From a virus, in IMG/VR virus record IMGVR_UViG_3300021138_000034, positions 1 through 55,124 of that record: DNA of 55,124 bases; one strand, given 5' to 3'. Of the stretch, positions 4,218 to 23,064 are shown piece by piece. The notes below the pieces were generated by a model that saw nothing but the letters and a program-made list of their open reading frames with translations, searched no databases and was not told the origin of the DNA. Position 1 is the first letter of the stretch, and each line of letters begins with the position of its first letter. A program made the translations under genes and the position numbers.

Positions 4218-4289
4218 AGCCCCCTATCTGATTTGAACAGATGACCGCCCGCTTACAAGGCGGGTGCTCTACCACTGAGCTAAGGAGGC
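4218..4289 (-). tRNA. tRNA-Thr (UGU)
   Basis: 72-nt cloverleaf: acceptor GCCTCCT/AGGGGGC with one wobble, anticodon arm CCCGC-CTTGTAA-GCGGG (anticodon UGU), T stem ATCTG/CAGAT. Confidence 0.92.
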
Positions 4290-10379: not shown

Positions 10380-10521
10380 GATGCTTCTCCTCACATGATC
10401 TAGCTAAACTGGTAACAACATACGACTTGCCGCACAGCTCACAAGTCCAAGGGTCTTTTCTACTTTTCGTTTTCTTTCTTCCCTGCTCGGCGCTTATTTT
10501 CCTTGGCAGTATTCTTGCCAT
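10363..10521 (-). CDS. C2H2-type zinc-finger small protein (up to 52 aa)
   Basis: The frame encodes ...KDPWTCELCGKSYVVTSLA then RSCEEKH, a zinc-finger-like Cys-x2-Cys...Cys-x3-His pattern. It lies between the HNH and HAD genes and overlaps both ends. ATG 10521 is the only start but has no ribosome site, so the true N-terminus is unsure and coupling to the HNH gene is possible. Confidence 0.5.
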   Translation of the reverse strand: MARILPRKISAEQGRKKTKSRKDPWTCELCGKSYVVTSLARSCEEKHLEQEA

Positions 10522-10750
10522 GTTTTAAAGCTCGCAGGTTGCCTTTAGAGTCATTGCTGTGATTGTTGTCTTTATGGTCTACATCTGTGCCACGAGGAAG
10601 TTTGCCGTTTTTTGATTCATAATCAGCACGAGCTTTGTTCTTGGAAGTGGTTACCCACTTACCTCCAACCTTCTTCTTGTAAACATAAATAGGGCGTCCG
10701 CCATTAGCGTCAGAGCCCTTGTATGGGCCAAACTTCTTAGTCTCTGACAT
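10460..10750 (-). CDS. HNH endonuclease-like protein (96 aa)
   Basis: The C-terminal half has LPRGTDVDHKDNNHSNDSK then GNLRAL, an HNH motif with the DxDHKD and N..NL elements. The N-terminus is a basic AP2-like strand region (GGRPIYVYKKKVGGKW). Such free-standing HNH proteins in phages may be homing nucleases or packaging-associated nickases. TAATG-coupled to the preceding gene. Confidence 0.8.
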   Translation of the reverse strand: MSETKKFGPYKGSDANGGRPIYVYKKKVGGKWVTTSKNKARADYESKNGKLPRGTDVDHKDNNHSNDSKGNLRALKHGKNTAKENKRRAGKKENEK

Positions 10751-15688: not shown

Positions 15689-15698
15689 CGACACGCCG
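15689..15698 (-). promoter_or_regulatory. CGGCGTGTCG element, leftward copy
   Basis: CGACACGCCG on the plus strand is the reverse complement of the element found in the rightward cassettes. Here it faces the leftward methylase unit, which suggests both arms use the same signal. No clear GTTATAAA lies behind it. Confidence 0.55.
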
Positions 15699-15925: not shown

Positions 15926-16062
15926 GCTACTGCTTAGCGCCGTATACCTTCAAAAAATTTTGATGCCCCCCGGCTGGGCTACTGTATAAGCCGTTATAGT
16001 CAAATCTTGCGCCGATTACCTGGAGGCCTTTGTAGATTTGTCGACATTTAACCGTGGGGGCT

Positions 16063-17115: not shown

Positions 17116-17201
17116 GTTTGTGTTGGTGCCCACCCTCCCAGCATTAAAGGAATGGAATGGAGAGATTATAACGAAATCGTTATAAAACTCTCGGCGTGTC
17201 G
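17116..17201 (+). promoter_or_regulatory. Early regulatory cassette, copy 1
   Basis: GTTTGTGTTG at 17116-17125; hairpin TTGGTGC-[CCACCCTCCCA]-GCATTAA with two G-T pairs; purine stretch GGAGAGA; perfect inverted repeat TTATAAC-GAAATC-GTTATAA at 17166-17185; CGGCGTGTCG at 17192-17201 (5-nt spacing instead of 7). A GCGGGGGA/TCCCCCGC hairpin precedes it. Drives the gene at 17275 after a 73-nt leader. Confidence 0.8.
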
Positions 17202-17274
17202 CTATTGGTGCTGTCGTAGGTAGGCGGTATTGTTCTCGGTGTTGGCAGATAGCCAGCAGATTAGGGGTAATCAA

Positions 17275-17448
17275 ATGAGCGTTAAAAAAGCGCGTAGGTC
17301 GTTAGTAGCAGGTATCTTTATGGGCGCACTAGTTGCGCTAGGTATAAATGCGGGAGTTGGTTTCTTGACTACTCATCATCAGGTCGAGTACAACTGCCAC
17401 CAAGCAGATGTCGGTTGGGAGTGCGATACTAAGTGGGTGCATAACTAA
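17275..17448 (+). CDS. Single-pass membrane protein (57 aa)
   Basis: MSVKKARRSLVAGIFMGALV with one transmembrane helix (about 10-33), then a short region with two Cys (NCHQADVGWECDTKWVHN). Positively charged N-terminus suggests N-in topology. Coupled by TAATG to the zinc-ribbon gene. Confidence 0.7.
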   Translation: MSVKKARRSLVAGIFMGALVALGINAGVGFLTTHHQVEYNCHQADVGWECDTKWVHN

Positions 17449-17558
17449 TGGAGTGTCGTTTCTGCCAGTCCGACGGTGGTTCAGATTACTATGACGGTTT
17501 CTGCCACCTGTGTTACAAAATCATCCATCCGAGGAAAGGTAAAACAAATGTCAGTTGA
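17448..17558 (+). CDS. Zinc-ribbon micro-protein (36 aa)
   Basis: MECRFCQSDGGSDYYDGFCH then LCYKIIHPRKGK: CxxC...CxxC metal site. Starts on the A of the preceding stop (TAATG) and overlaps the next gene by 11 bases. Confidence 0.65.
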   Translation: MECRFCQSDGGSDYYDGFCHLCYKIIHPRKGKTNVS

Positions 17559-17763
17559 TACAACAAGCCCAGTCTATCCAGATGTCCATGTCCAGCTCGT
17601 TGGTCAGGACGGTAATGCGTTTGCGATCATGGGACGCGTCCAGTCAGCCCTAGAAGATGCGGGCGCAACTAAAGAAGAAATCGAGCAATATCTAAACGAA
17701 TCCATGTCAGGCGATTACGATAATCTTCTTCGTACCGCTGTGAAATGGGTGAGCGTTTCCTAA
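17548..17763 (+). CDS. Conserved actinophage hypothetical protein (71 aa)
   Basis: YPDVHVQLVGQDGNAFAIMG, VQSALEDAGATKEEIEQY and SGDYDNLLRTAVKWVSV form a well-conserved pattern I know from actinobacteria and their phages. AGGAAAGG precedes ATG 17548. Function not established. Confidence 0.75.
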   Translation: MSVDTTSPVYPDVHVQLVGQDGNAFAIMGRVQSALEDAGATKEEIEQYLNESMSGDYDNLLRTAVKWVSVS

Positions 17764-17786
17764 AGCTTAGTTACCCCTAAGACGGC

Positions 17787-17820
17787 AGCCCGGCGGGGCT
17801 TCTCTCCTGCCGGGCTTTGC
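17787..17820 (+). terminator. Intrinsic terminator
   Basis: AGCCCGGC / GCCGGGCT stem with a 14-nt loop, followed by TTGCTGTG. Closes the 17275-17763 unit just before the next cassette. Confidence 0.75.
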
Positions 17821-17839
17821 TGTGTCCGCGCGAGAAAAT

Positions 17840-17928
17840 GTTTGTGTTGGAAGCCCGCCCACCCAGCTTCAGGAATATCTAGGAGAGAGATTGTTATCAG
17901 ATTGTTATAAATGTTCCTCGGCGTGTCG
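17840..17928 (+). promoter_or_regulatory. Early regulatory cassette, copy 2
   Basis: GTTTGTGTTG at 17840; hairpin GAAGC-[CCGCCCACCCA]-GCTTC at 17850-17870; AGGAGAGAGA; GTTATC-AGATT-GTTATAAA at 17893-17911 (left half in direct orientation); 7-nt gap; CGGCGTGTCG at 17919-17928. A 74-nt leader leads to the gene at 18003. Confidence 0.82.
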
Positions 17929-18002
17929 GTTTGCCTAGTCGGTGGCATGGCATACCATTGAGGCAGATAGCAGACGGCTATCAGTTCGAGAAAGGAACGA
18001 TT

Positions 18003-18569
18003 ATGGGTCTAGATATGTATCTAGAGGCTCGTAAGTTCGTTTCGGGATACGATTTTGCTCCCGAAGCGGATAAGCATTTGTTTAATCAGTTGAGCGAGAT
18101 TAGCCCCGCTGCTCCAAGCGTGGACTCTCCCTCTTTCCAATTAACCGTAAATATCGGTTATTGGCGCAAGGCGAACGCTATTCACGGTTGGTTTGTCCGT
18201 GAAATTGGCGACGGCGTTGATGAGTGCCAAGAAATGTATGTTCGCCGTGAGAAGTTGGCTGAACTGAAGTCTGCTCTCTTATTGGCTCTTGGTGAAAAGC
18301 CAAGCGTTGTTGCTCCTGCCTCTCAGGGTTATTCCATTAACGGCAACCCTGCCGAGGTTATCGCTGAGACTATGGTTCTAGAGGCTCACCGTGCTGAACT
18401 CAATGATGAGAGTGATACCGACCCTCTCCGTCCCGTCGGTGGTTTCTTTTTCGGTGGTACTGAGAAAGATGAGTGGTACTACCGTCAATTAGCGAACACT
18501 CTCGACATTATCGAGAAGGCGCTCGCTCTCCCAAGTACTTGGGACATTTACTATCAGGCGAGTTGGTAA
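18003..18569 (+). CDS. Conserved MGLDMYL-type hypothetical protein (188 aa)
   Basis: Starts MGLDMYLEARKF and has TVNIGYWRKANAIHGWFV and a later FFFGGTEKDEWYYRQLANT. These motifs belong to a widespread phage/bacterial family without an agreed function. CGAGAAAGGA precedes ATG 18003. TAATG-coupled to the next gene. Confidence 0.75.
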   Translation: MGLDMYLEARKFVSGYDFAPEADKHLFNQLSEISPAAPSVDSPSFQLTVNIGYWRKANAIHGWFVREIGDGVDECQEMYVRREKLAELKSALLLALGEKPSVVAPASQGYSINGNPAEVIAETMVLEAHRAELNDESDTDPLRPVGGFFFGGTEKDEWYYRQLANTLDIIEKALALPSTWDIYYQASW

Positions 18570-18853
18570 TGGCTAACTCTCAGGCTCGTGCGCTCGTCGA
18601 AAGGCGAGCGCAGGAGTGGCACAAGCGCTATTACTCTCAGTTGAACGGTGCGACCCTTGCCTTTGTTTGTATGACCGAGGATGAGTGGGGCAACCCTGAT
18701 TTCCCTACCTTCTTAGCGAAGTTCCCTGACGGTAGGACTATCCAGCTCGAAGTCTCTCGTGACCCTGAAGGAAATGGTGGCGGATTTATTTTCGGCATGG
18801 ATTTCCCTGACATGGCTGACTTTGATAAGGAAAGCGGGTTCGATAAGTTGTAA
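18569..18853 (+). CDS. Hypothetical protein (94 aa)
   Basis: Helical N-terminus (ARALVERRAQEWHKRYYSQL) then a beta-rich part (FLAKFPDGRTIQLEVSRDPE) and a Gly/Asp/Phe-rich end. The start overlaps the preceding stop (TAATG); upstream in-frame starts lie inside the previous gene and are rejected. No known family. Confidence 0.65.
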   Translation: MANSQARALVERRAQEWHKRYYSQLNGATLAFVCMTEDEWGNPDFPTFLAKFPDGRTIQLEVSRDPEGNGGGFIFGMDFPDMADFDKESGFDKL

Positions 18854-18922
18854 GCGATTGGGGTTGGGAGTGATAACCAGTAACGGCGCGAGTAGCCTCG
18901 CGCGACCCCTCGCTCGCAAAAT

Positions 18923-19008
18923 GTTTGTGTTGAGCCCACCCACCCAGCTCAAATAGGAATGGATCGAGAGAGATAACGAAATTGTTATAGAAGTCGCTCG
19001 GCGTGTCG
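18923..19008 (+). promoter_or_regulatory. Early regulatory cassette, copy 3
   Basis: GTTTGTGTTG at 18923; hairpin TTGAGC-[CCACCCACCCA]-GCTCAA; GAGAGAG; GATAAC-GAAATT-GTTATA at 18972-18989; 7-nt gap; CGGCGTGTCG at 18999-19008. A GCGCGAG-TAGC-CTCGCGC hairpin lies upstream. 86-nt leader to 19095. Confidence 0.82.
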
Positions 19009-19094
19009 GCTGGAGATGTCGGTGCTGTCGAGTATTGTGTGGCTGTTGGTCAAACGACCAGCCCTGCTGACGGCAGGTTCAGAAAGGAAGTCCT

Positions 19095-19508
19095 ATGGGC
19101 ATAGCCCTTAAAGTTCCCAGAGCCAAAGTTTTGGTGGCTCTCAAAGACAGGCTCGTTCAGATTGAGTCTGACTACAAGCACCAAGCCAAGTATGAGGCTG
19201 ATTTCATCAAGGCTCATAAGAAGTGGCAACAAGATGTAATCAAGTTGGCTACAACCGAAGGCAAAATCCTTCCTACCGAGTGTTCGGTCTATGTCCGAGC
19301 ATACGGCACTAGCAACCAAATCAGCCTTCAGTATGAAGTGAAGAAGGAAGATTTGCCTGAAGAACCGACCCGTGATTGGGAGTCGATTAGCGACTACAAG
19401 TATCGCGAGATGCGTGATGAAATAAGCAACGCTATCCGCGTGATCGAGATGTGCGAAGATGAGGTAATCCCAGCCTCCACTCTCAAACCTTATAGCCACT
19501 ATCTATAA
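19095..19508 (+). CDS. Coiled-coil hypothetical protein (137 aa)
   Basis: Helical N-terminal half (KVLVALKDRLVQIESDYKHQ...HKKWQQDVIKLA), a beta segment (CSVYVRAYGTSNQISLQYEV) and a helical C-terminus. AGAAAGGA precedes ATG 19095. Single-gene unit with its own cassette and terminator. No recognised family. Confidence 0.65.
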   Translation: MGIALKVPRAKVLVALKDRLVQIESDYKHQAKYEADFIKAHKKWQQDVIKLATTEGKILPTECSVYVRAYGTSNQISLQYEVKKEDLPEEPTRDWESISDYKYREMRDEISNAIRVIEMCEDEVIPASTLKPYSHYL

Positions 19509-19519
19509 GAGATAGGAGA

Positions 19520-19553
19520 AGCCCTCGCCCTTAGGAAAGGCGGGGGCTTTTTC
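19520..19553 (+). terminator. Intrinsic terminator
   Basis: Ten-bp GC-rich stem AGCCCTCGCC / GGCGGGGGCT (one wobble), 9-nt loop, then TTTTTC. Confidence 0.9.
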
Positions 19554-19578
19554 GCGCCCGCGCGGAACGCGCGGAATT

Positions 19579-19676
19579 GTTTGTGTTGGAAAGCCCACCC
19601 ACCCTGCTTTCTGGAATACATAGGAGAGAGATAGGGATTTATAACAAAATCGTTATAAAAGACTTACGGCGTGTCG
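19579..19676 (+). promoter_or_regulatory. Early regulatory cassette, copy 4
   Basis: GTTTGTGTTG at 19579; hairpin GAAAGC-[CCACCCACCCT]-GCTTTC at 19589-19611; AGGAGAGAGA; TTTATAAC-AAAATC-GTTATAAA at 19638-19659; 7-nt gap; CGGCGTGTCG at 19667-19676. CCGCGC/GCGCGG hairpin upstream. 78-nt leader to 19755. Confidence 0.82.
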
Positions 19677-19754
19677 CTATTGCCTGTCGGTCTGGACGTG
19701 TAATGTCTGCTCTGTCGGGGAAACTCTTCGACTGTTCGAGAAAGGAACAAGCGG

Positions 19755-20249
19755 ATGTCTAAAAAAGACACGCTGAAAATAAAAGAGGCTTGCCTTCTTT
19801 TATTGAGCCTTGCCGATAAGTGGCAAGACGGAAAACCACTAGACCACGAGGAGATTGACCTTCTCGCGTGGGCTATCGCTGAAAATCTACAAGTGCGCGA
19901 TTACGCTATGAGCGCGCTACTTATGGACAAATTCGAGTCCGTAACTCTGACGATTGACTTCTATGACGAACTCGTTTCGCTCGTATCTGACGAATACAAG
20001 CACTCAATTCTCTCTATCCTTGCCATTCTTTGGTATGGCGCTGAGGATGACGAACTATCTGCCCGTAACCTGTCTATGGCTCTAGCCCTAAAGCCTGATT
20101 ATAAACTCGCGTTACTGGTTCAGAGAATCCACTCTGCTAACTGGCCTCACGAGGTTGTGCAAAATATGTTTAACGAACTCCACCCTACGGTGCGCGCCAG
20201 CGTGACCGAGGGCGGAGAGTATGCGGAAATGCTGGTTTCACAGGGCTAA
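19755..20249 (+). CDS. DUF4192-like protein (164 aa)
   Basis: The C-terminal half (ILSILAILWYGAEDDELSAR, LSMALALKPDYKLALLVQRI) resembles the helical repeat of actinobacterial DUF4192. The full-length family is longer, so this may be a short phage version. CGAGAAAGGA precedes ATG 19755. Function of the family is unknown. Confidence 0.6.
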   Translation: MSKKDTLKIKEACLLLLSLADKWQDGKPLDHEEIDLLAWAIAENLQVRDYAMSALLMDKFESVTLTIDFYDELVSLVSDEYKHSILSILAILWYGAEDDELSARNLSMALALKPDYKLALLVQRIHSANWPHEVVQNMFNELHPTVRASVTEGGEYAEMLVSQG

Positions 20250-20266
20250 GTAGCCAGCGTTAGAGA

Positions 20267-20297
20267 AGCCCCCCAGCTCGTCACTGGGGGGTTTTTC
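20267..20297 (+). terminator. Intrinsic terminator
   Basis: CCCCCCAG / CTGGGGGG stem with 7-nt loop followed by TTTTTC; a strong canonical terminator. Confidence 0.92.
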
Positions 20298-20336
20298 ATT
20301 TGCCCTTGATCGCGCGAACGTGGGTCGCGCGAGATT

Positions 20337-20423
20337 GTTTGTGTTGGTTGCCCGCCCACCCAGCAACTAGGAATTGAATGGAGAGACATAACGAAATTGT
20401 TATAAATGGGTACCGGCGTGTCG
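20337..20423 (+). promoter_or_regulatory. Early regulatory cassette, copy 5
   Basis: GTTTGTGTTG at 20337; hairpin GTTGC-[CCGCCCACCCA]-GCAAC at 20347-20367; GGAGAGA; ATAAC-GAAATT-GTTAT at 20388-20403; 7-nt gap; CGGCGTGTCG at 20414-20423. TCGCGCGA repeats upstream form a hairpin. 55-nt leader to GTG 20479. Confidence 0.82.
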
Positions 20424-20478
20424 TGACCGGTCGCGGGCCGGATGTGGCAAGATGTGTTTACTCGAGAAAGGAGTTACC

Positions 20479-20784
20479 GTGACTGGTACAGAAGGCATTC
20501 AGATAGTCGATGCGCAGCATCACTATGCAGTTCTTGAAGTTAAGAAGGAACTGAAGTTTAAATTCGATGGTCATGACTATGAGTGGACGGCATTCATTGG
20601 AGAACGTGGCTATGTCGAATATTGGAAGAGAGATGGCATATCAATTGAAGGTGGCGACACTGACGTTGAGTACCAGGTCCTGGACATGGACATGGGAGCG
20701 CTTTGGGAGGAAATCACTAATCGCAATTGCCAGCATAACCGGGCATGCGAATGTATGACATGTGGTGAGGTTCTCTATCACTGA
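20479..20784 (+). CDS. Hypothetical protein with C-terminal Cys/His cluster (101 aa)
   Basis: GTG 20479 is chosen for CGAGAAAGGAG upstream; an in-frame ATG at 20452 lies before that site. A beta-rich core (EVKKELKFKFDGHDYEWTAF) is followed by CQHNRACECMTCGEVLYH, a likely zinc site. No known family. Confidence 0.65.
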   Translation: MTGTEGIQIVDAQHHYAVLEVKKELKFKFDGHDYEWTAFIGERGYVEYWKRDGISIEGGDTDVEYQVLDMDMGALWEEITNRNCQHNRACECMTCGEVLYH

Positions 20785-20810
20785 TGGGTCCGTCAGCCCT
20801 ATCATCGAGG

Positions 20811-20842
20811 CCCCCGGGAAACCGGGGGTCTTTCGATTTTCG
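20811..20842 (+). terminator. Intrinsic terminator
   Basis: CCCCCGG-GAAA-CCGGGGG tetraloop hairpin followed by TCTTTCGATTTT. Confidence 0.88.
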
Positions 20843-20847
20843 GAATT

Positions 20848-20944
20848 GTTTGTGTTGGCCCTCCCACCCAGCATTTAAGGAATAGGAATAGAGAGAGATA
20901 CCGGCTTTATAACGAAATTGTTATAAACCATGGCCGGCGTGTCG
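20848..20944 (+). promoter_or_regulatory. Early regulatory cassette, copy 6
   Basis: GTTTGTGTTG at 20848; loop CCTCCCACCCA conserved but flanked by only a 2-bp GC stem, the weakest hairpin of the set; GAGAGAGA; TTTATAAC-GAAATT-GTTATAAA at 20906-20927 (perfect 8-bp arms); 7-nt gap; CGGCGTGTCG at 20935-20944. 68-nt leader to 21013. Confidence 0.8.
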
Positions 20945-21012
20945 CGATTGATTGTCCGTGGCCTCGTGTAAGTTGTGCCTTGCCGGAAAGGTTCCGCGCA
21001 AGAAAGGTAAAC

Positions 21013-21228
21013 ATGTCTAAAGACGAAGACATAAAGACGGAAGAGGTGACGTACCGGTTCATTACCGGCACGTGGTATTCCATCACCATTCCTAAAGAGA
21101 GAGAGGGGCAACCCGGCTACTCTCCTGAAGAGATATACAGCGCTTACTTTAATGAGGGCGCGCCTGATGACGTTAAGGTCTCAGAGGATGAAGTGGACCA
21201 TGTCTGGGAGGATGATTTAAATGCCTAG
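21013..21228 (+). CDS. Hypothetical protein (71 aa)
   Basis: Charged small protein with a TYRFITGTWYSITIPKERE beta segment and an acidic end (SEDEVDHVWEDDLNA). AAGAAAGGT precedes ATG 21013. Overlaps the next gene by 8 bases. Confidence 0.65.
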   Translation: MSKDEDIKTEEVTYRFITGTWYSITIPKEREGQPGYSPEEIYSAYFNEGAPDDVKVSEDEVDHVWEDDLNA

Positions 21229-21430
21229 ATTCGACGTTAAGATGGTCATCGAATTCTCCGGTGAGCTCGAAGCTGATACAGCTGCCGAAGCTGAAGAAAA
21301 GGCCTGGACCTCCTGGGGTGACACGGCTGCTGCTGATATTACTTACGACGGTGTCTATTCAATTGAGGTAGACGAGATTGAAGAAGACGAAGAGGAAGAA
21401 GAGGACGATGAAGATTCAGACAAAAGCTAG
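21221..21430 (+). CDS. Small protein with poly-acidic tail (69 aa)
   Basis: MPRFDVKMVIEFSGELEADT then AAEAEEKAW..WG form a beta-alpha unit known in actinophage small proteins. The last 20 residues are almost all Glu/Asp. The DNA-mimic-like tail could bind basic proteins; that is inference. Confidence 0.65.
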   Translation: MPRFDVKMVIEFSGELEADTAAEAEEKAWTSWGDTAAADITYDGVYSIEVDEIEEDEEEEEDDEDSDKS

Positions 21431-21515
21431 ATGCGTCGAATGCTCCCGCGTTTTTGACCTCCTTGATGAGACAGATGCTGCAGAATGGGCATACGGTCAT
21501 GACTGTGAAAGCTAA
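21408..21515 (+). CDS. Small Cys-pair protein (35 aa)
   Basis: MKIQTKARCVECSRVFDLLD then ETDAAEWAYGHDCES, a conserved actinophage micro-protein pattern with C..C and a distal HDC. Overlaps the genes on both sides. Confidence 0.65.
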   Translation: MKIQTKARCVECSRVFDLLDETDAAEWAYGHDCES

Positions 21516-21678
21516 GACAGTGAGTGAGGCTCCCGGCAAGGGGGCCTCACGCCATGAGCACTATTGGATCTGTCAAGACATTCCCGGTTACTACAGCTGC
21601 AAATGCGGATTACAGAGATACTGGGATCGAAACAGGAGGCAGTACGTACTGTTCCTTGAAGACAATAGCGCCTCGTAA
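21499..21678 (+). CDS. Zinc-ribbon-like small protein (59 aa)
   Basis: HEHYWICQDIPGYYSCKCGL followed by QRYWDRNRRQYVLF. Three Cys and His residues may bind one metal. ATG 21499 overlaps the previous gene by 17 bases; GTG 21520 is an alternative. The end of the gene forms the left arm of the terminator. Confidence 0.6.
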   Translation: MTVKAKTVSEAPGKGASRHEHYWICQDIPGYYSCKCGLQRYWDRNRRQYVLFLEDNSAS

Positions 21679-21695
21679 GGGGCGCTATTTTTTTA
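21664..21695 (+). terminator. Intrinsic terminator overlapping a stop codon
   Basis: AATAGCGCC / GGCGCTATT nine-bp stem, 8-nt loop, followed by seven T; the left arm lies inside the last codons of the gene. Confidence 0.92.
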
Positions 21696-21721
21696 TTGGA
21701 GTTTGCCTACACCCACCAAAA

Positions 21722-21821
21722 GTTTGTGTTGAAGCCCTCCCACCCAGCTTCTTATGGAATATATATAAGAGAGACGATATCGAACACGTGTTCGCCGAAC
21801 GTTTGTTCGAGAGACACGCCG
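21722..21821 (+). promoter_or_regulatory. Early regulatory cassette, copy 7, SOS variant
   Basis: GTTTGTGTTG at 21722 and hairpin GAAGC-[CCTCCCACCCA]-GCTTC at 21731-21751 are kept, but the GTTATAAA operator is replaced by two SOS-type boxes: CGAAC-ACGT-GTTCG at 21781-21794 and CGAAC-GTTT-GTTCG at 21796-21809. The CGGCGTGTCG element appears inverted with one mismatch at 21812-21821. Confidence 0.75.
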
Positions 21822-21887
21822 GTGGCCCGGGTAGTTGACTCTGCAGCTGCCGGTGGTAAGTTACTTCTTGGCGGGACGGCCGCCACG

Positions 21888-21903
21888 TCGAACGTTTGTT
21901 CGA
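21888..21903. promoter_or_regulatory. Third SOS-type box, next to the start codon
   Basis: TCGAACGTTTGTTCGA, exact match to TCGAAC-N4-GTTCGA, 19 bases before ATG 21923. A repressor bound here could also block elongation. Confidence 0.75.
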
Positions 21904-21922
21904 TGAGAGAGAAAGAGAAACA

Positions 21923-22456
21923 ATGACTACACAATTGAGAGAGATGAGAGAGATAGAGGTAGGCAATAGCTGCAGCTGCACCTACTGCCCTAACTGTTCT
22001 CTAGGTTCATCCGGCAATGAAGTATGCGATGAATGCCAACAACCGGTTCAGTACTCCAATGAATGCTTCGACTGCCAACCGTTTGACTGGGCCGAGGAAG
22101 AATTCGATGCTTGGGTCGATCGAGTCGGAGCTAAGCGCCTGCGTATTGATGGCCGTGCCATGGGTTGGCAGCGCCGATCCGGATACGCATACTGCGATCC
22201 AACCTGGAAGAGTTTCCTGGACCGGGTTACCTTCAATGGTGACTGGACCCTTAAGCTCAAGTTCGATGGCGATAGCTTCACCTTCAACCGGTATGGCCAC
22301 GATGAGCCCACTGGAGCTCACTTCGAAGTCTCTGTACACTTCTTCCTCCGGGACACTATGACCTTGGATCAAGCTGTCGAACACGAGATAGTCGACGAGT
22401 ATGGATGCCATATCAGCTGTGGCGAGTACTTCTATGATTGCGAGTGCAGCTCATGA
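21923..22456 (+). CDS. Cysteine-rich hypothetical protein under SOS-type boxes (177 aa)
   Basis: The N-terminus has repeated Cys pairs (SCSCTYCPNC, VCDECQQPV, CFDCQPFDW: a double zinc ribbon). The middle has a beta-rich domain (DWTLKLKFDGDSFTFNRYG) and the end has CHISCGEYFYDCECSS. No known family. GAGAGAAAGAGA precedes the ATG. Three upstream LexA-type boxes imply induction by host DNA damage; the function may relate to that. Confidence 0.7.
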   Translation: MTTQLREMREIEVGNSCSCTYCPNCSLGSSGNEVCDECQQPVQYSNECFDCQPFDWAEEEFDAWVDRVGAKRLRIDGRAMGWQRRSGYAYCDPTWKSFLDRVTFNGDWTLKLKFDGDSFTFNRYGHDEPTGAHFEVSVHFFLRDTMTLDQAVEHEIVDEYGCHISCGEYFYDCECSS

Positions 22457-22575
22457 GCGCTGGAGAGGCCTTACTCAGAGATCCCATCAATACCCGGCTT
22501 GAATGTAAGCTTTGCGGGCGCCTAGTAACCGGCGCTCGGGAAGCTATCGAGCATGAAGAGACTCATACTGCTTGA
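22453..22575 (+). CDS. C2H2-like zinc-finger micro-protein (40 aa)
   Basis: RLECKLCGRLVTGAREAIEH then EETHTA: C-x2-C...H-x3-H zinc finger. ATGA overlap with the previous gene. Confidence 0.65.
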   Translation: MSAGEALLRDPINTRLECKLCGRLVTGAREAIEHEETHTA

Positions 22576-22604
22576 CAAGCATCCTGATTAGTATTAATGT
22601 CTGT

Positions 22605-22642
22605 ACCGCTGGAGCGTCTTAACCTTTCTCAGCTCCAGCGGT
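22605..22642 (+). terminator. Long stem-loop after zinc-finger gene
   Basis: ACCGCTGGAGC / GCTCCAGCGGT perfect 11-bp stem with a 16-nt loop. It has no T-run, so it may be a structural RNA or a factor-dependent terminator. A second nested hairpin (GAGGC-A-GTAA...TTAC-C-GCCTC) follows at once. Confidence 0.6.
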
Positions 22643-22707
22643 CAGAGGCAGTAACCGTCATTACCGCCTCCGGTCTGGCAGCGAGACACCTTGCTCGCTG
22701 CAAGATT

Positions 22708-22783
22708 GTTTGTGTTGACCCTCCCACCCCTTATCCCTTCGGGATAGGGTGATGGAGAGAGAGAAAGTCAAGGCGACACGCCG
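22708..22783 (+). promoter_or_regulatory. Regulatory cassette, copy 8 (divergent form)
   Basis: GCAGCGAG/CTCGCTGC hairpin, then GTTTGTGTTG at 22708 and CCCTCCCACCCC, but the usual stem is replaced by a separate 9-bp hairpin CCTTATCCC-TTC-GGGATAGGG at 22729-22749. GGAGAGAGAGA follows. The CGGCGTGTCG element is exact but on the minus strand (22774-22783). Confidence 0.65.
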
Positions 22784-23009
22784 GAAGAGGAGGCAGCAGG
22801 TTCACGATCACTAAGTGATAGCAGTCACAGAGTGACTGGCAGGCTCTAAGAGCCAGTCAGTTAGGCTACTGCTCAGATAGTGAGACGGTGAGTCGGCTGT
22901 ACCCCCAGATTTACAGGACCTCCGGTCCAACTCCTATCTGATAACTCCGTGGAGAGAGATAGGAGAGAGAGAGACACTCTCAGCTATCCTCCTGGAATTG
23001 TCGACATTT
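22784..23009. other. Gene-free region rich in short inverted repeats
   Basis: No credible gene in 22576-23140. Short palindromes include ATCACT-A-AGTGAT (22807-22819), AGTCAC-AGA-GTGACT (22823-22837), GGCTCT-A-AGAGCC (22842-22854) and GGACC-TCC-GGTCC. GGAGAGAGATAGGAGAGAGA occurs just before 22975. TTGTCGACATTT at 22998-23009 repeats the sequence at 16038-16049 upstream of ArdC. Possible ncRNA, replication origin or partition site. Confidence 0.5.
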
Positions 23010-23025
23010 TGTTCCACGTGAAACA
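23010..23025. promoter_or_regulatory. parS-like site
   Basis: TGTTCCACGTGAAACA matches the B. subtilis-type parS consensus TGTTNCACGTGAAACA at every fixed position. It directly abuts the operator at 23026. No ParA or ParB gene is recognised in the window, so host ParB is the likely reader. Confidence 0.7.
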
Positions 23026-23064
23026 TTTATAACGAAATTGTTATCAAACCCCACCGGCGTGTCG
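23026..23064 (+). promoter_or_regulatory. Operator/-10 and CGGCGTGTCG of the 23141 unit
   Basis: TTTATAAC-GAAATT-GTTATCAA at 23026-23047, 7-nt gap, CGGCGTGTCG at 23055-23064, then a 76-nt leader ending in GAGAAAGG before ATG 23141. The upstream half of this cassette (copy 8) lies 280-350 bases away. Confidence 0.78.

Follow-up and report, generated by a model that had tools for sequence, protein, structure and literature searches.

A strand-oriented 10-mer with a covarying hairpin at cassette borders in uncultured freshwater actinophages

Eight short elements recur on the + strand of a 55-kb IMG/VR virus record (IMGVR_UViG_3300021138_000034; the whole stretch of 55,124 nucleotides is referred to as the window), each lying between small genes and following the layout GTTTGTGTTG-[stem]-CCCnCCCnCCC-n-[stem']. 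The site is conserved across relatives and enriched genome-wide, it is biased in strand and regularly spaced, its stem covaries and cassette borders fall at it. From these comparisons we tentatively propose that it may be a strand-specific DNA-processing site, most likely one for nicking or single-strand initiation, that occurs in folded form at the borders of exchangeable cassettes.

Results

The elements, defined as GTTTGTGTTG followed within 0–8 nt by CCCnCCCnCCC, start at positions 17116, 17840, 18923, 19579, 20337, 20848, 21722 and 22708 and account for eight of the 10 window copies of TTTGTGTTG (0.7 expected), all of which lie on the + strand. In copy 1 (17116..17145) the 10-mer (17116-17125) is followed by the stem GGTGC (17125-17129), the loop CCACCCTCCCA (17130-17140) and GCATT (17141-17145), the stem forming three Watson-Crick and two G-T pairs. 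The same arrangement is seen in copy 2 (17840..17870; 10-mer 17840-17849, GAAGC 17850-17854, loop 17855-17865, GCTTC 17866-17870), copy 3 (18923..18950; 10-mer 18923-18932, GAGC 18932-18935, loop 18936-18946, GCTC 18947-18950), copy 4 (19579..19611; 10-mer 19579-19588, GAAAGC 19589-19594, loop 19595-19605, GCTTTC 19606-19611), copy 5 (20337..20367; 10-mer 20337-20346, GTTGC 20347-20351, loop 20352-20362, GCAAC 20363-20367) and copy 7 (21722..21751; 10-mer 21722-21731, GAAGC 21731-21735, loop 21736-21746, GCTTC 21747-21751), the last being followed by LexA-like CGAACN4GTTCG boxes. The six differing but paired stems quoted in the initial annotation (copies 1–5 and 7) are thus all present in the sequence, as is copy 6 (20848..20872; 10-mer 20848-20857) with its C-rich loop and a stem of only 2 bp. 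The separate hairpin ascribed to copy 8 is found as well (TATCCC-TTC-GGGATA, 22727-22749, after the 10-mer and CCCTCCCACCC), but this copy, the last of the array, sits at 22708..22749 and hence beyond the range of 17125-21751 assigned to the set. The loop, described there as always 11 nt long, has this length in the window but measures about 10–13 nt in relatives. Across relatives the constant parts are CCCnCCCnCCC and GTTTGTGTTG ahead of it. Whereas the initial annotation stressed the C-rich loop, conservation is highest in the 10-mer GTTTGTGTTG, which is also found as an inverted repeat or alone, with no C-rich loop beside it.

Compensatory change in the stem beside a fixed loop had been taken as the sign of a functional structure, and both shuffling and slid-register controls reject chance as its source. 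An arm of 3 nt or more is present in 54 instances, and 43 of these form a helix of at least four Watson-Crick pairs, compared with a mean of 8.4 (maximum 18 in 2000 trials) when the 3' sides were dealt out among the instances; in a helix alignment of the 19 distinct instances of equal length, 24 cells were changed on both sides versus 8.4 after shuffling, and the covariation score was 0.681 versus 0.262 for shuffled alignments (0 of 500 reached 0.681), the instances being related sequences and the shuffle figures therefore not probabilities. Slid registers, which preserve relatedness, scored at most 0.19, and because these controls clearly fail, chance pairing is rejected despite the kinship of the instances. 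Folding as DNA gave minimum free energies of -1.5 to -4.1 kcal/mol for six of the seven stem-type copies and of -4.8 kcal/mol for copy 4 (z-scores from -1.5 to +1.6); single copies fold about like shuffled sequence and are not unusually stable, so that the evidence is covariation and not stability. Tolerance of stem loss, suggested earlier from copies 6 and 8, is borne out by an arm of just 1 nt in 70 of 130 instances. The covarying-stem pattern is real and family-wide.

A pattern scan of IMG/VR returned 70 stretches, reduced to 137 distinct contexts and, after stricter removal of duplicates, to 121 distinct instances, most of them from the same kind of phage (L006, L052, L058 and L059 look like chance). 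The carriers are one clade of uncultured freshwater phages infecting actinobacteria; their contigs are fragments, and the G-numbers used below are labels without taxonomy. Cultured phages (INPHARED) yielded neither similar DNA nor a pattern match, and bacterial genomes were discounted as carriers after a single match, taken as chance. Streptomyces phage BRock, among the closest cultured phages by DNA polymerase (38% identity), was likewise set aside as a cultured carrier, its early region holding four copies of a different word, ATGTTTGTACC. Because the exact 10-mer served as search key, part of its invariance follows from the search itself, although under a relaxed search hardly anything other than GTTTGTGTCG variants turned up.

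The word takes three forms in this clade: with the C-rich hairpin (the window type), as an inverted repeat closing a palindrome, and alone. Sister phages have the inverted-repeat type, with 43 distinct one-sided palindromes of 59–142 nt whose ends are formed by GTTTGTGT[T/C]G paired with C[A/G]ACACAAAC; many of them have stems up to 20–27 bp. In gene orientation the 5' side holds most of the unpaired bases in 29 of the 43 and the 3' side in three. In a word-alone subclade, reached via ribonucleotide reductase, CCAACACAAACA is the only form present; a stretch of about 12 kb carries it on one strand at intervals of about 1 kb, in gaps as well as in ORF interiors, and ends with one inverted copy directly after a terminator. 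Two more contigs bear a related word, TTGTTGAGTTGG.

Spacing is regular in nine arrays (coefficient of variation 0.19–0.34, P from 5e-5 to 0.011), and in the G030–G033 subclade sites lie within ORFs as well as in gaps, so that the spacing there is not simply gene length. Motif-less relatives, inspected for other repeated words, showed no comparable regular array. When 210 words of equal composition were counted outside the arrays, CAACACAAAC ranked first with 66 copies (mean 5.4, sd 6.2). In window-type genomes the word keeps to one genome strand despite changing gene direction (48:1 in arrays, 25:8 elsewhere, 73:9 in total). Inverted-repeat arrays carry it on both strands and G030-type arrays on the strand opposite to the rest of the genome, and a strict one-strand rule was given up on account of these two types. 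We also abandoned the idea that the word is a sense mRNA signal, as window-type arrays carry it antisense.

Most of the genomes examined have a single array whose elements all point the same way, with a convergently oriented ribonucleotide reductase gene close by (G012 is atypical and G003 gave no reductase match), ORFs being predicted crudely and gene orientation taken from the longest ORFs; the array in the window comes after an ArdC-type antirestriction gene. Cassette gene families recur in a different order between genomes, the homology between related arrays often ends within tens of bases of an element, and in most arrays the last element is distinct. Cassette reordering of this kind could stem from ordinary homologous recombination. 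Each element lies 3' of the terminator-like hairpin of the preceding gene and 5' of operator-like boxes. Downstream of copy 1 there is an operator-like TTATAACGAAATCGTTATAA box (17168..17187, + strand), repeated after copies 2–6, then CGGCGTGTCG (17192..17201, + strand) and, about 3 nt on, a promoter-like TTGnnT-N16-18-TAnnGT that was picked out visually in the alignment; a sigma-70 consensus scan did not flag the promoters (TTGnnT-N17-TAnnGT) proposed in this way. A TGTGAN6TCACA palindrome follows within 150 nt downstream in 26 of 102 C-type elements and a perfect DnaA box within the same distance in 15 of 38 inverted-repeat elements, neither being present in upstream controls.

The proximity to terminators bears on an alternative that we rank second and regard as rather unlikely, namely that a bound protein, or the T-rich word itself, halts RNA polymerase reading GTTTGTGTTG in sense and so insulates the cassettes as a polar roadblock or terminator helper, antisense copies suppressing antisense transcription. 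A GC hairpin stands directly before copy 4 (19558..19574, + strand), the 10-mer reading as its T-rich tail, and similar GC hairpins were found by the intrinsic-terminator scan at 20310-20332, 20822-20843 and 22678-22701 (+ strand), so that the word reads as the T tract of hairpins ahead of four of the eight window copies, with the covarying hairpin itself downstream of that tail. Strong hairpins precede the sense-oriented array word (median -18.4 kcal/mol, versus -6.5 at random positions and -6.8 at antisense array copies), and G030-type operons have antisense copies in their interior and a sense copy at the end, right after the operon terminator. A roadblock would account for orientation about as well as nicking. 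However, a T tract needs no exactly conserved 10-mer, any feature of a cassette border is expected to adjoin terminators, sense copies exist inside ORFs, and neither the spacing of about 1 kb nor the strand-symmetric downstream palindromes would be explained.

The initial annotation had left open whether the structure acts as RNA or as DNA, and here the terminators adjoining the elements provided a built-in control for RNA hairpins. In these, G-T pairs made up 12.8% on the sense strand versus 7.2% on the other strand, and by a stricter method 34 G-T pairs were counted versus 0 A-C mismatches, whereas the long palindromes (helices of at least 6 bp) had 2.7% G-T on both strands. Internal G-T pairs numbered 1 of 242 pairs in stem 1 versus 34 of 790 in terminators, with a few further G-T pairs at the outer end of stem 1. 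Folded single-stranded DNA also tolerates G-T better than A-C, and the test therefore carries much weight for the long palindromes but only moderate weight for the window hairpins. An apparent RNA-like G-T asymmetry of the second hairpin (8 to 0) was dismissed, most counts coming from spurious helices. That the element is instead a structured sense-strand RNA, for example a 3' UTR or read-through RNA whose C-rich loop is bound by Rho or another protein, would agree with the stem covariation, with some stems carrying G-T at their outer end, with second hairpins that often have C-TTCG-G or C-TACG-G loops, and with window-type elements always being codirectional with their cassettes. We nonetheless judge it improbable, as internal G-T is nearly absent, the long palindromes lack the strand asymmetry of the adjoining terminators, and the element lies 3' of a terminator and 5' of the operators of the next gene. 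Rfam at the gathering score gave no match at the elements, only tRNAs being detected in the window, which speaks against this explanation and led us to reject a known RNA family. The symmetry of the palindromes and the position between terminator and next operators favour a role at the DNA level, and the element resembles a site for DNA handling more than it does an RNA switch.

Discussion

Under the DNA-processing interpretation that we favour, one actinophage clade would possess, in GTTTGTGTTG/CAACACAAAC, a strand-specific site recognised by a DNA-processing phage protein, the most likely activity being programmed nicking or single-strand initiation. Window-type genomes have the site at each border of the small gene cassettes, which are controlled independently of one another, and the adjoining module, a C-rich loop with variable stem, would fold once the strand is single-stranded; in the sister phages the site is doubled, forming an inverted repeat that closes a long one-sided hairpin, and this palindrome would fold likewise. 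We infer that the DNA is cut or opened at the site, that the protein recognises the folded strand, and that processing helps cassettes to be gained, lost and reordered. If the CAACACAAAC strand were cut, copies inside operons would be on the non-template strand and transcription would not be stopped, while template-strand copies would fall mostly between units, after a terminator; this fits the orientations observed, but the reasoning is post hoc. Several observations run against nicking: the one-strand rule fails in two types, single C-loop hairpins are weak and the outer end of the stem contains G-T.

Programmed nick motifs have been mapped in phages T5, phiKMV and tf, that of the Pseudomonas phage tf being TACTRTGMC with 14 sites (PMC3517423, PMC11780129). 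Like these, the word described here is short and asymmetric, has many copies in and between genes at positions common to relatives and, in the window type, keeps to one strand; its regular spacing and, in one subclade, its disregard of gene borders also match the mapped motifs of tf and relatives. Unlike them, it is a different word, two of its three types break the one-strand rule, and it is known from sequence alone; moreover, no covarying hairpin or palindrome is reported for tf-type motifs in the open-access full text.

A candidate nickase, by co-occurrence only, is a 96-aa HNH_3 protein encoded at 10460..10750 on the - strand of the window, which has no recognised DNA-binding domain. It was found in 23 of 36 records. 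Of the tested records that bear the motif and measure 54 kb or more, only the 74-kb fragment G030 did not yield it; five long records with no motif or almost none (G041, G043, G044, G046 and G047) lack it too, and the motif-less G045 has it. The copy in G039 (56% identical) accompanies an unchanged motif and that in G037 (67%) a changed one. The link between HNH_3 and motif is a correlation only, confounded by phylogeny. BRock has an HNH protein of its own, with no clear relation to the 96-aa one. Two further proteins without assigned function, of 150 and 107 aa, are, like HNH_3, common to motif-bearing phages and mostly missing from motif-less relatives.

The repeated asymmetric word with transcription-linked orientation also recalls the stoperators of cluster A mycobacteriophages, in which orientation is tied to transcription; unlike these, the elements described here add covarying hairpins, regular spacing and sites inside ORFs.

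The terminal boxes of integron attC sites read RYYYAAC ... GTTRRRY, and the inverted-repeat ends of the sister phages (GTTTGTG ... CACAAAC) do not match them. In other respects attC sites are similar, lying between cassettes and combining conserved ends with a variable palindromic interior and one-sided unpaired bases (PMC2727003). A folded, integron-like recombination site, at which a recombinase acts on the folded strand and swaps whole cassettes, would explain the row of single-gene cassettes in varying order, the breaks in homology at the element, the fixed ends with variable one-sided palindromes and the distinct last element of most arrays. It is less likely still than an RNA element: besides the misfit to the GTTRRRY box, no tyrosine recombinase (PF00589) was detected in any of 30 records (14 of 14 controls were positive), neither a serine resolvase nor a Y1 transposase was detected in 18 records, and the same word lies inside ORFs of sister phages. 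The strand-selecting imperfect palindrome of the inverted-repeat type is absent from the window type, which lacks the right-hand arm and is half a palindrome, and each cassette has, unlike those of integrons, its own promoter region and terminator. An integron proper was rejected on the same lack of integrase, resolvase and Y1 transposase, and an N4-type ssDNA-hairpin promoter was set aside, the window showing no large RNA polymerase gene.

To our knowledge, apart from integrons, replication origins and ssDNA promoters there are few documented cases of covarying structure that evolves as DNA rather than RNA; here a covarying, DNA-like structure marks the borders of fast-changing cassettes in uncultured freshwater phages. 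The site may serve cassette exchange, insulation, replication or packaging. If it is nicked, the fifty-year-old puzzle of programmed phage nicks would gain a testable function, in cassette exchange or in transcription insulation, and if it recombines, it would represent a cassette system without integrase. An integrase-free exchange, in which a new kind of enzyme nicks out and reshuffles single-gene cassettes flanked by the strand-specific site and its folded single-strand module, seems to us a doubtful prospect; were it true, these phages would possess a changeable row of early genes.

Array ends and contig ends

The final element of an array is usually of a distinct type, either a TATCCCTTCGGGATA hairpin or a C-rich loop plus an inverted repeat (for example at 22708 in the window and at 4234, 2867 and 3688 in the related IMG/VR loci L013, L020 and L044, respectively), and is followed by a long noncoding region. 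Close to array ends, and ahead of promoter-like sequences, the GGCTACTGC motif is recurrent: it lies at approximately 22865-22873 and 15927-15935 in the window, occurs in L012, L013, L020, L023 and L057, and is present as CGGCTACTGC near position 178 of the cultured Streptomyces phage BRock (L140). The early region of BRock also carries four copies of ATGTTTGTACC (+ strand, 2541, 12574 and 12758; - strand, 5015), which resembles the first half of the 10-mer word of the clade.

Six of the 27 contig ends located at most 1.3 kb from a 10-mer site fall within 50 nt of it (contigs L014, L016, L025, L036, L057 and L149), more than even spacing would give. This excess could arise from assembly hindered by palindromes or from physical breaks, both being possible. 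The 96-aa HNH_3 protein (window 10460-10750) ranks with the best-conserved proteins in the clade, most members sharing 72-94% identity.

Putative regulatory sequences

The CGGCGTGTCG motif or its complement occurs in the window at 17192, 17919, 18999, 19667, 20414, 20935 and 23055 on the + strand, where putative -35 elements lie directly 3' of the copies, and at 15689, 22774 and 23863 on the - strand; both orientations were found across many related phages. The operator kinds 3' of elements comprise CRP/GlxR-like TGTGAN6TCACA sequences, perfect DnaA boxes, TTATAAC boxes and LexA-like boxes. Within each phage, most cassettes seem to share a single operator kind downstream of their elements (window 17168-23060; related loci such as L034, L055, L010 and L061), which suggests that the cassettes are wired to host regulators.
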